Source of the DNA: Spiribacter salilacus
Lineage (GTDB): Bacteria; Pseudomonadota; Gammaproteobacteria; Nitrococcales; Nitrococcaceae
Length of the DNA: 64,000 bases
Assembly: GCF_009649225.1 (NCBI RefSeq)
Contig: NZ_WJPP01000002.1
Location: 434,001-498,000, forward strand
Reading direction: 5' to 3'
In this document: positions 45,450 through 47,582 of the stretch, piece after piece
Layout of the letters: the number at the start of each line of letters is the position of its first letter
How positions within the stretch are numbered: position 1 is the first letter of the stretch
Notes under the pieces: model-generated
What the model saw: only the letters and a program-made list of their open reading frames with translations
The model's database searches: none
What the model was told of the DNA's origin: nothing
Made by a program: the position numbers and the translations under genes

Positions 45450-46844
45450 TCAAATTGTCATATTTTGACGGATCAATCCCTGCCGAGACCAGTCACCTAA
45501 AGTACGCCAAATGTCTTGTCTCACCTGTGGCAACGTGGCCGGTGTGGCCAGCTGCTTGGCCATCTCTTCTGGCTCAGTGCCCGCACACATCTGCAACCAT
45601 ATCCAGCTGGCCGTCTCGTTAGAGCTAAATACTTGACCAGTAGCATGAGAAATCAGAAAAAGCTGATCATTTTTAATCACCTCCTCAACCCTCCATGGTT
45701 GATATGACGGTGTCAGTGGCTGCCCCACCACCTGCTCTGCCGCCTGCTGATCCGCTAAGCTTGGCGCAATCAACTGGTGAAATTTTGACTGCGCGTCTGC
45801 GGCTGGATAAAGGCAGCGATAGCGCCCGGATTGCAACGGCCCATTCAGGCCAAGCAACCCCACCAAATCATCAATCAGCGCTTTTTTCATGGCTGCCTCG
45901 GTAATACCCCCCTGCTCCGGACGCGCGCAGGTTTCTAGCGAAGGGCTTAAATTACACTCAAGCAGCCAGGGCTTAAGCTGTGCATCAATCAGGCAATCCA
46001 GCCCCATCAGCTCATAGGTATGCGCAGCAATTGGGCCAATGGCTTGAGCGCGCGCCCGCATGGCCTCGCAACCTGCCATAACCGTGCGCACAATCAGATC
46101 ATCAATTTGCCCAAGCAATCGAGTGGCATCATGCCCTTGCGCTTTCAGCCATTCGCTATAGTCCGTTAATGAGAGAAACTCCACGCCGACTTCGGCATTA
46201 CGCTCGTTAACATCCGGATTGGTCAAAAAGACGTAGGGGTTCTTTCGCTCCTCAGGTGCGTAAGGCATAGACGCTAATTTGACCGACCCCTCTGCAAATC
46301 GCCAGATGCGCAGCGGATCAATCTCACTAATCAACACGTAAAGCCGCAGCACGTATTTTCGGCCTTGATAAAGATGCGGCGCATCAAGATACCGCTGCAC
46401 CACCCAATCACCCTGCGTCGGGAGGGTATCGAGGGTATCAAGTAGCTGAATATCCTCTCCGCGTGCGCCATTAGCGGGCTTGACGATCCACGCCGTATCC
46501 GGTGCTTGTTCGGCCGCTTGCTGCAGCGCCTCTTGCTCTGCCGGCAGGTTATAGGTTTCAGGCCAAAACACATCCGTTAATTCCCACCGCTTTTGCGCCG
46601 CATCAAGTGTTTGGTGCAAAGCGCTTTTTACGGTTAGGTGATTATTGCCGGGAATATGATTAATCCAGCTGTGCTCGGGGGCCTGAGCAAACACCTCTGG
46701 CGCCGGCATATCGGTATGCCAAATTGCATGCCAATTTGAGGCGGAGCCTTGTTGCCATAAATCAGGGCTCAGCGCCTCGGCAAACAGCCGATTCTGGCTC
46801 CCCTGTGAATCACCTTGAAACCAAACCTTGCGCTGATGCGCCAT
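45450..46844 (-). CDS. Tubulin-tyrosine-ligase-like ATP-grasp protein fused to a PqqD-like domain
   Basis: A 464-residue protein with two parts. Residues 58-335 follow the tubulin-tyrosine ligase (TTL) pattern: HIPGNNHLTVK, WIVKPANGARGEDI (119-132, ATP-binding Lys122), QRYLDAPHLYQGRKYVLRL, ISEIDPLRIWRFAEG, FLTNPDVNERN and GLDCLIDAQLKPWLLECN (281-298) with metal-binding Glu296 and Asn298. TTL enzymes ligate an amino acid to a protein carboxyl group. Residues about 381-464 resemble PqqD: QLFLISHATGQVFSSNETAS, IWLQMCAG and a GLI ending. PqqD domains bind leader peptides of modified peptides. I chose the ATG at 46844 with GAGG nine bases upstream; a start at 46883 would add 13 residues. It is divergent from the DoxX-like gene by 78 bases. 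Confidence 0.82.
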   Translation of the reverse strand: MAHQRKVWFQGDSQGSQNRLFAEALSPDLWQQGSASNWHAIWHTDMPAPEVFAQAPEHSWINHIPGNNHLTVKSALHQTLDAAQKRWELTDVFWPETYNLPAEQEALQQAAEQAPDTAWIVKPANGARGEDIQLLDTLDTLPTQGDWVVQRYLDAPHLYQGRKYVLRLYVLISEIDPLRIWRFAEGSVKLASMPYAPEERKNPYVFLTNPDVNERNAEVGVEFLSLTDYSEWLKAQGHDATRLLGQIDDLIVRTVMAGCEAMRARAQAIGPIAAHTYELMGLDCLIDAQLKPWLLECNLSPSLETCARPEQGGITEAAMKKALIDDLVGLLGLNGPLQSGRYRCLYPAADAQSKFHQLIAPSLADQQAAEQVVGQPLTPSYQPWRVEEVIKNDQLFLISHATGQVFSSNETASWIWLQMCAGTEPEEMAKQLATPATLPQVRQDIWRTLGDWSRQGLIRQNMTI

Positions 46845-46856
46845 CAGACAAACCTC

Positions 46857-46905
46857 TTTCGAACGAGTAAGATGGAGGGTCAAGTATGGCGCTTGTCGCT
46901 CGAAA
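46857..46905. repeat. Short inverted repeat in the TTL/DoxX divergent promoter gap
   Basis: TTTCGA (46857-46862) and TCGAAA (46900-46905) are inverted six-base arms 37 bases apart in the only non-coding gap shared by both sides of the locus. They could be operator half-sites, but arms this short can arise by chance. Confidence 0.25.
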
Positions 46906-46922
46906 ATTGGAGGTCATTTAAC

Positions 46923-47300
46923 ATGGGGGCACCCCTTCACACCGGCGATCCGTTGCTTGATCGTCAAGCAGCGATTGGGCAGTGGTTACTGCGAACACCA
47001 TTGGCAATAGCGTTGCTTTATCAGGGTTTTAATCGATTCCTGATTGATGGTGCGCCCTGGCTTGCCGTAGCAGAAATTGCCACGGGCCTTGGTCTATTGG
47101 CGGGGGCGCTGCTGGGTGGCTGGCTAACCCGCATCGGCGCTTTTGCTGCCAGCCTTCTGCTGCTGGGGGCCATTTTTATGGTGCACTGGGGGCAATGGCA
47201 TCCCTTGCCCTCAGATTCTCACCCTGCCGGTGGCATCGCACTGCCCATTACACTGCTTTGCATTGCCATTTATCTTCTTATTCGCGGCAACGAGGTATAA
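46923..47300 (+). CDS. DoxX/MauE-like small membrane protein
   Basis: A 125-residue inner-membrane protein with about four hydrophobic segments (about 16-30, 40-62, 64-84 and 98-120). The layout and the GFNRFLIDGAPWLA and GGWLTRIGAFAAS segments are those of the DoxX superfamily, whose members act with thiol or oxidase systems. A HWGQWHPLPSDSHPAGG loop precedes the last helix. I chose the ATG at 46923, nine bases after GGAGG; a frame from 46815 would run back through the promoter into the divergent gene. It is followed nine bases later by the PEA-repeat protein gene. Confidence 0.75.
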   Translation: MGAPLHTGDPLLDRQAAIGQWLLRTPLAIALLYQGFNRFLIDGAPWLAVAEIATGLGLLAGALLGGWLTRIGAFAASLLLLGAIFMVHWGQWHPLPSDSHPAGGIALPITLLCIAIYLLIRGNEV

Positions 47301-47309
47301 CAAGCGCGC

Positions 47310-47582
47310 ATGTCTGATCAAGAACGCCAACAGCTACTCAAAAAGCTATCTCGCGGGCTGGTTTATACAACGCCGCTATTAATCGCAATGACCGGTGCGG
47401 CTGCCATTCACGGCGTCTACTCTGATCTTGCGCAACGGCCCAATGAGCAACCCGCTCCGGCGAGCACGCCCGAGGCGGCGCCTGAAGCGGCGCCCGAGGC
47501 CACTCCCGAGGCAACGCCCGAGGCCACCCCCGAGGCAACGCCCGAAGCCACGCCTGAGGCAATGCCTGAAGCAGGGGGTTAA
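47310..47582 (+). CDS. Small protein with PEA-repeat tail, candidate modified peptide
   Basis: A 90-residue protein in two parts. Residues 1-42 form a basic helix and a short hydrophobic stretch ([20 protein letters not shown], then GAAAIHG). They resemble the conserved start of small proteins often found beside PqqD-type genes, with KKLxYxxPxI. Residues 53-88 are nine four-residue repeats, mostly TPEA, ending MPEA-GG, so every fourth residue is Glu. The gene lies nine bases after the DoxX-like gene and shares a locus with a TTL-PqqD enzyme. It may be the enzyme's substrate; this is inference. A proline-rich periplasmic spacer is the plain alternative. The stop overlaps coaD on the other strand. 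Confidence 0.72.
47466..47573 (+). repeat. Nine tandem 12-base repeats coding for (T/A/M)PEA
   Basis: In-frame 12-base units such as ACGCCCGAGGCC repeat nine times without interruption. Units differ at synonymous positions (CCC/CCT, GAG/GAA, GCC/GCA/GCG), so the protein pattern has been kept while the DNA has drifted. Copy number could vary between strains. Confidence 0.9.

Follow-up and report, generated by a model that had tools for sequence, protein, structure and literature searches.

In eukaryotes, the tubulin tyrosine ligase-like glutamylases and glycylases TTLL6, TTLL7 and TTLL3/8, members of the tubulin tyrosine ligase (TTL) family, have clustered glutamates in a flexible tail as their acceptor, and the tails of tubulin are rich in Glu and Gly. 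Leader-guided modification is found in those pathways to ribosomally synthesized and post-translationally modified peptides (RiPPs) that depend on a RiPP recognition element (RRE), including the PqqD, lasso and sactipeptide types, which combine a PqqD-type domain with a separate leader and a YxxP-like motif (described in the part of PMC12710340 used here). We report here on a locus that brings the two together, located in a stretch of 64,000 nucleotides from Spiribacter salilacus (assembly GCF_009649225.1, contig NZ_WJPP01000002.1, forward-strand positions 434,001 to 498,000; the whole stretch is called the window below). In this locus, one protein joins a TTL domain to a PqqD-type domain, while a 90-residue protein nearby joins a conserved leader to a tail of repeated glutamates. 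We consider it probable that this leader-guided ligase joins amino acids to the side chains of the tail glutamates before export.

The likeness to the eukaryotic enzymes comprises the same Pfam family and fold, a retained ATP-grasp core and clustered glutamates in a flexible tail as the proposed acceptor; unlike them, the enzyme studied here is bacterial, has putative substrates that bear a leader and are not tubulin, is fused to a PqqD-type domain and has changed two residues that TTLL6 and TTLL7 share. With the RRE-dependent pathways the locus has in common the domain, the separate leader and the motif; in contrast to them, it employs a TTL-type ligase, which is absent among the biosynthetic identifiers given in that same portion of PMC12710340, and in addition some putative substrates carry a heme domain and the leader resembles a signal peptide. 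Bufferins and other precursors modified by multinuclear non-heme iron-dependent oxidative enzymes (MNIOs) likewise have signal peptides as leaders and an RRE-type partner, and doxX genes frequently occur with them, but their substrates are mostly modified at Cys (as far as the excerpt of PMC12452194 goes), whereas no Cys occurs in 109 tail stretches here, and an MNIO is an iron oxygenase rather than a ligase; for two homologues of the DoxX-like protein described below, HvfX gave weak matches that stayed far under the cut-off of the model (E 0.0014 and 0.0018). Bacterial TTL proteins as such have been noted before, e.g. a putative one in a Legionella genome (in the section of PMC2824747 cited here). 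Among the open-access papers listed, judged by title and opening of the abstract, none described a TTL-PqqD protein or substrates of this kind. Since both domains and the logic are known, we file the system under leader-guided peptide modification and not as a wholly new kind; what appears to be new, as far as seen in that literature, is the combination of domains, the type of substrate and the likely chemistry.

A TTL domain fused to a PqqD-type domain

The enzyme gene occupies 45450-46844 on the minus strand, with its start at ATG 46844, and encodes 464 residues; its identification is based on Pfam matches, an AlphaFold2 model and relatives in other genomes. A first-pass annotation of this DNA had proposed a two-domain enzyme, and both domains were confirmed by Pfam matches above cut-off: the TTL (ATP-grasp ligase) domain PF03133 at aa 56-307 (45924-46679, minus strand), with E 3.2e-55 and 187.8 bits vs. 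a cut-off of 20.1, and the PqqD (RRE-type) domain PF05402 at aa 396-458 (45471-45659, minus strand), with E 5.1e-6 and 27.2 bits vs. 23.4. In a comparison with the PDB, the nearest solved sequences were those of the polyglutamylases TTLL7 (2.8e-37) and TTLL6 (6e-35), with TTL (2.1e-13) and entry 5vlq (2.3e-14) far behind; we take 5vlq to be the glycylase TTLL3, the molecule name in the entry being silent on the type. The residues that we presume, from what is known of TTL, to be the catalytic ones of the ATP-grasp fold are nearly invariant among the enzymes of 89 non-redundant loci, with K122 kept in 88 of the 89 and R167, D283, E296 and N298 in all. The AlphaFold2 model (mean pLDDT 90.7, pTM 0.91) superimposes on the TTLL6 structure with Z 38.3 and rmsd 2.4 over 346 residues, and its C-terminal part (elements 386-454) follows the beta3-alpha3 order of leader-binding RRE domains, a succession of strands and helices by which these domains are defined in the text of PMC12710340, as far as it is drawn on here. 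The closest named relative among genome contigs, from an uncultured Ectothiorhodospiraceae bacterium (L045), is 51% identical.

Two TTLL6 sequences were among the PDB matches, one of them engineered as judged by the entry titles. Residues A127 and R128 of the window enzyme are those of the engineered TTLL6, and a third active-site position holds Leu, as compared with Ile in the engineered and His in the wild-type protein; across the 89 enzymes, the first position is A in 28 and S in 60, the second is R in 45 and K in 43, each with one gap, and the third is L in 89. Engineering of TTLL6 (Mahalingan, 2020) reportedly resulted in side-chain initiation on internal glutamates, and these three residues, being nearer to the engineered than to the wild-type TTLL6, give a weak hint at side-chain initiation in the bacterial enzyme as well.

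Enzyme and leader protein occur together

Relatives of the locus were obtained with an alignment-based scan of genome contigs, which returned 98 loci where a single-protein query had given none. The best 80 of these were taken (L045-L124), so that the locus counts describe the nearest relatives; after L029-L031, L035, L036 and L040-L042 had been dropped as duplicates of loci in L045-L124, there were 89 non-redundant TTL loci, many of them close relatives (Halomonas, Marinobacter) and not independent. An iterated profile search identified a leader protein in the fetched stretch of 82 of the 89 loci, for a total of 112 leader proteins, and the nearest leader gene was <1 kb from the enzyme open reading frame (ORF) in 81 of these 82. 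In the remaining 7 loci the leader protein is encoded elsewhere in the genome, so all 89 have one. Thus, in G003, G005, G009 and G011, all of the window's genus, leader and DoxX-like genes lie away from the enzyme in a window-like neighbourhood, at a distance of about 140 kb (G005) or 178 kb (G009) on one contig, or with enzyme and leader gene on different contigs (G003, G011); the leader genes belonging to L058 (genome G053) are on another contig than the enzyme, and for L114 and L119 the leader protein was found elsewhere in the genome with E 5.6e-7 and 1.7e-5.

The same association was seen genome-wide. Among 76 relatives, a leader protein was present in 17/17 TTL-positive vs. 2/59 TTL-negative genomes (Fisher 4.5e-15, uncorrected for kinship), and at the level of single genomes the two agreed in being present or absent throughout the genus of the window and family f2, G007 and G010 excepted. 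A conserved leader, a variable core and co-occurrence of the precursor with a modifying enzyme, as demanded of a RiPP, are all found here. In the class sample of 369 genomes, the leader occurred in 4, which are the 4 with a TTL match <1e-48, and not in the 10 genomes with weaker TTL matches (best 3e-44); in the phylum sample of 398 genomes, it occurred in 3, again those with a match <1e-48, and not in the 13 with weaker ones (best 8.5e-13), the two samples sharing some genomes and the cut of 1e-48 having been set after the results were known. For the five genomes below this cut besides the window's, the enzyme alignment extends into or through the PqqD part, ending at position 433 in one and at 458-462 in four. 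In contrast, the match of five weaker TTL proteins stops before the PqqD part in 5/5, and the 9-13 kb fetched around their genes contained no Glu-rich gene and no leader save a chance-like hit (E 0.039); these other bacterial TTL proteins share PF03133 with the enzyme and have no convincing leader nearby. Collectively, the pairing of enzyme and substrate is strongly supported.

A conserved leader and a glutamate tail

The putative substrate (precursor) gene is located at 47310-47582 on the plus strand and encodes 90 residues. The conserved leader covers aa 1-40 (47310-47429) and has the form RxxLLxxLSRGLxYxxPLL, with YTTP, an instance of the YxxP motif, at aa 19-22 (47364-47375); nine PEA units, whose glutamates are the proposed acceptors, follow at aa 54-88 (47469-47573). 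The arrangement given in the first-pass annotation, with the enzyme on the opposite strand from its neighbours across a 78-base gap and nine PEA units in a protein of 90 residues, was borne out, and its view of the front part of this protein as a leader that the enzyme probably binds was supported, this part being conserved and mostly carrying YxxP. In the genome of the window, this PEA protein is the sole match to the leader profile. We aligned it with 21 other leaders, to which it is 29-65% identical, and derived the consensus RxxLLxxLSRGLxYxxPxL; the recurrence of this leader next to the TTL genes of further genomes goes beyond chance. Of the 112 leaders, 111 allowed the motif to be located, and 47 non-redundant ones were drawn from these: Pro is present in 47/47, YxxP in 34/47 and [YFWL]xxP in 39/47. 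Although YxxP was spotted only once the leader set was complete, these frequencies are not free of selection, since the profile holds the columns in question. Motifs of the form W/Y/LxxP/L/I are bound by domains of the PqqD, FusE, McjB and StsC type (PMC12710340, in the part used here). Judged by eye, the leader, which continues into a hydrophobic stretch, could pass for a signal peptide or a membrane anchor. The PEA protein represents one variant within a larger, unnamed family of leader-bearing proteins, many of which have a CxxCH domain. In one member (L043 7913-8290), the reading frame seems to go astray past the leader, and a second leader gene lies nearby at 8384-8632.

Among these proteins the leader is conserved and the tails are variable. 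Defined as at least 6 Glu spaced by 2-4 residues, a tail stretch is present in 109 of the 112 leader proteins, with 6 to 36 Glu per stretch (median 14) and an overall composition of 44.8% E, 24.1% A, 24.0% G, 0.4% D and 0 C. Identical adjacent 4-residue units share 46.8% of their codons (1572/3360), close to the 42.5% that pooled codon use predicts, and the repeats are therefore maintained at the protein level. Conversely, every one of the 98 ORFs with at least 5 E[GA] repeats in the TTL loci carries the leader, by profile as well as by motif. When one EG tail, a short low-complexity query, was run against the PDB sequences, no tubulin was matched.

These tails could also be passive, the Glu repeat serving as a disordered acidic spacer while the enzyme has its target in a different protein or at a different site of the substrate, e.g. 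its alpha-carboxyl end. Halomonas, Marinobacter and their relatives account for many of the hosts; these are halophiles, and acidic spacers are frequent in salt-loving bacteria. Furthermore, low-complexity linkers are common ahead of exported cytochromes, and TTL itself modifies a C-terminal carboxylate. However, an acidic spacer should use Asp too, whereas Asp accounts for 0.4% of the tails vs. 7.8% of the TTL enzymes of the same genomes (Glu in these enzymes, 6.9%); Asp is thus avoided in the tails, although a spacer that was simply acidic would have no need of this. The strict linkage of E[GA] repeats to the leader argues in the same direction, as do the 32 CxxCH proteins, in which the tail precedes the domain and the C-terminus therefore belongs to the heme domain and not to the tail. 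On balance, we regard a passive tail as unlikely, even though it is the best of the alternatives. The first-pass annotation had singled out the Glu-rich tail as the likely acceptor, and this view gains from Glu being used with hardly any Asp and from the tubulin polyglutamylases being the nearest solved relatives of the enzyme.

Fusions to heme proteins

Of the 112 leader proteins, 32 have CxxCH behind the tail. Three CxxCH proteins were tested, one of them via a duplicate locus, and the SoxA-TsdA cytochrome c domain was recognised in each (7e-8, 1.2e-9 and 4e-7). Another combination, found in the genomes of L114 and L119 with the enzyme elsewhere in the genome, comprises the leader, an EAEG tail and a cytochrome P460-like domain (L224 1504-2418 and L225 1474-2403), the matches to the latter being below the Pfam cut-off (6.5e-5 and 8.8e-4).

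Proposed mechanism and alternatives

Based on these data, we propose the following sequence of events. The PqqD-type domain would bind the substrate leader at its YxxP region; given the motif and what is known of the domain family, we hold this step to be very likely. The TTL domain would then attach amino acids, at the expense of ATP, to the carboxylates in the side chains of the repeated tail glutamates, which we judge quite likely. Given the likeness of the leader to a signal peptide or N-terminal anchor, the tail, once decorated, would come to lie beyond the inner membrane, an export step that we hold with slightly less assurance, albeit still as the likely outcome. Substrates would include small stand-alone tail proteins, such as the PEA protein of the window next to the DoxX-like gene, as well as proteins in which the tail forms a linker ahead of a c-type heme domain. 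By kinship of the enzyme, Glu and Gly would be the first candidates for the donor amino acid.

Several points weigh against this scheme. The PqqD score of the window enzyme is modest, and the exact YxxP motif is missing from 13 of the 47 non-redundant leaders. Two incomplete genomes (84% and 86%) have a leader protein with no TTL found; each contains a leader and DoxX-like pair (L168 5121-5939 and L169 5582-6609), and either missing sequence or loss of the enzyme may explain these genomes. As the tail stretches were chosen by Glu spacing, part of their high Glu content follows from this choice, which is not so for the low Asp share. In the active site, the R of RFAT/RMGT, common to TTLL6 and TTLL7, has become K189 in 89/89 bacterial enzymes, and the K of S[IV]NK, likewise common to both, is mostly A at position 214 (85/89) and E in the window; with these two shared residues replaced, the donor or its binding may differ from that of the eukaryotic enzymes.

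Besides a passive tail, two other roles for the repeated glutamates deserve mention. Amino-group carriers of the LysW type are charged by ATP-grasp ligases, and the tail glutamates might similarly hold amino acids or amines while a small molecule is assembled and only afterwards set free. Peptide scaffolds to which amino acids are added do serve as the basis of some pathways (PMC9016710 and PMC12715798, both in the portions cited here), but the TTL loci have no further enzyme set in common, the top neighbours other than antisense readings being DinB-like (60/89) and rhodanese (35/89) proteins; in addition, the tail is fused to heme domains, and a leader that resembles a signal peptide is ill-suited to a cytosolic carrier. 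A carrier role is accordingly improbable in our estimation. As for cross-linking, graspetide cores contain Glu or Asp plus Lys, Ser or Thr partners. That an ATP-grasp enzyme forms lactone or lactam bridges here between tail Glu and other side chains, as in the graspetides, a RiPP class made by such enzymes (PMC8939145, in the section used here), is the least credible alternative and very improbable, in view of the few partners in the 109 tail stretches (K 1.9%, S 1.0%, T 0.4%) and of a ligase that belongs to the TTL family by both Pfam and PDB comparison.

Returning to the ligation of amino acids to tail glutamates, this proposal, if true, would mean that the chemistry behind the tubulin code, commonly presented as a eukaryotic matter, exists in bacteria as well, self-contained and with leader-addressed substrates of its own; it would also add a type of ligase to leader-guided peptide modification, connect the latter with heme proteins, and provide a two-gene system (enzyme and a substrate of ~90 residues) for TTL chemistry without microtubules. 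The finding would also bear on the origin of the eukaryotic TTLL enzymes, and the system is far broader than the window, being found in salt-loving and marine bacteria. Going further, we speculate, with considerable doubt, that it may be a bacterial counterpart of the tubulin code, in which a TTL-type ligase, addressed by the leader, attaches amino acids, possibly varying in number, to many glutamates (6 to 36 in each stretch) of a set of exported proteins, c-type heme proteins of the SoxA/TsdA kind or P460-like being frequent among them, and thereby tunes location, binding, or electron or sulfur transfer. In a bolder form of this speculation, the added groups might be thiols (Cys), i.e. sulfur-carrying arms beside a SoxA-like heme.

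Other genes and features of the locus

Directly upstream of the small gene lies a gene for a DoxX-like membrane protein of 125 residues (46923-47300, plus strand); in our reading its start is most likely ATG 46923, which gives the 78-base gap to the enzyme gene. With regard to the identity proposed in the first-pass annotation, the window protein itself stays under the PF07681 cut-off (E 0.019, 16.0 vs. 23.6 bits), while two homologues exceed this threshold (E 6e-9 and 1.9e-10; 36.9 and 41.7 bits). Of the three genes once expected to co-occur, the enzyme and the small protein do so, but a homologue of the DoxX-like protein is found in 17 of the 89 TTL loci (one match being weak), directly upstream of the leader gene in 16. 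Genome-wide, such homologues are present in 17/19 leader-positive and 7/57 leader-negative relatives, and in the latter 7 (L214-L220) no leader gene lies beside them. A fixed three-gene system is therefore rejected on both counts, and the DoxX-like protein is an optional partner that is not dedicated to the system.

The window enzyme lacks a part that most of its relatives have: 76 of the 80 genome-contig enzymes (L045-L124) carry >200 additional C-terminal residues (e.g. L068 8537-9340). The extensions tested matched neither Pfam nor NCBIfam, and for the enzyme and the leader proteins NCBIfam likewise gave nothing above cut-off. A model built from 31 extensions has a PEPCK-like fold (Z 10.9) that also resembles HPr kinase (Z 10.3 over 135 residues), and the P-loop GxxxxGK[ST] is found in 0/31; the extension is possibly a dead kinase that serves in binding.

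We also considered a mobile element or defence system, which was rejected, as no relatives of the enzyme were found in plasmid or phage collections at E 1e-5 and PADLOC gave no match; in PHROGs, a single weak match was seen, linking the small protein with a family whose function is unknown. The window lies within a genome of 2.2 Mb.

Among the neighbours, for which several rows of the tally are antisense readings, sulfur metabolism is a suggestive theme of the TTL loci but not a constant one, with a rhodanese family in 35/89 and a YeeE/YedE-like family in 9/89, the window included. In the window, a YeeE/YedE-type sulfur transporter (PF04143; 36611-37819) adjoins a rhodanese-like protein (PF00581; 37836-38840). 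The DinB-like family, which is not in the window, is present in 60/89 loci (L046 9840-10403 and relatives), and the one tested matches PF05163 with E 1.2e-6.

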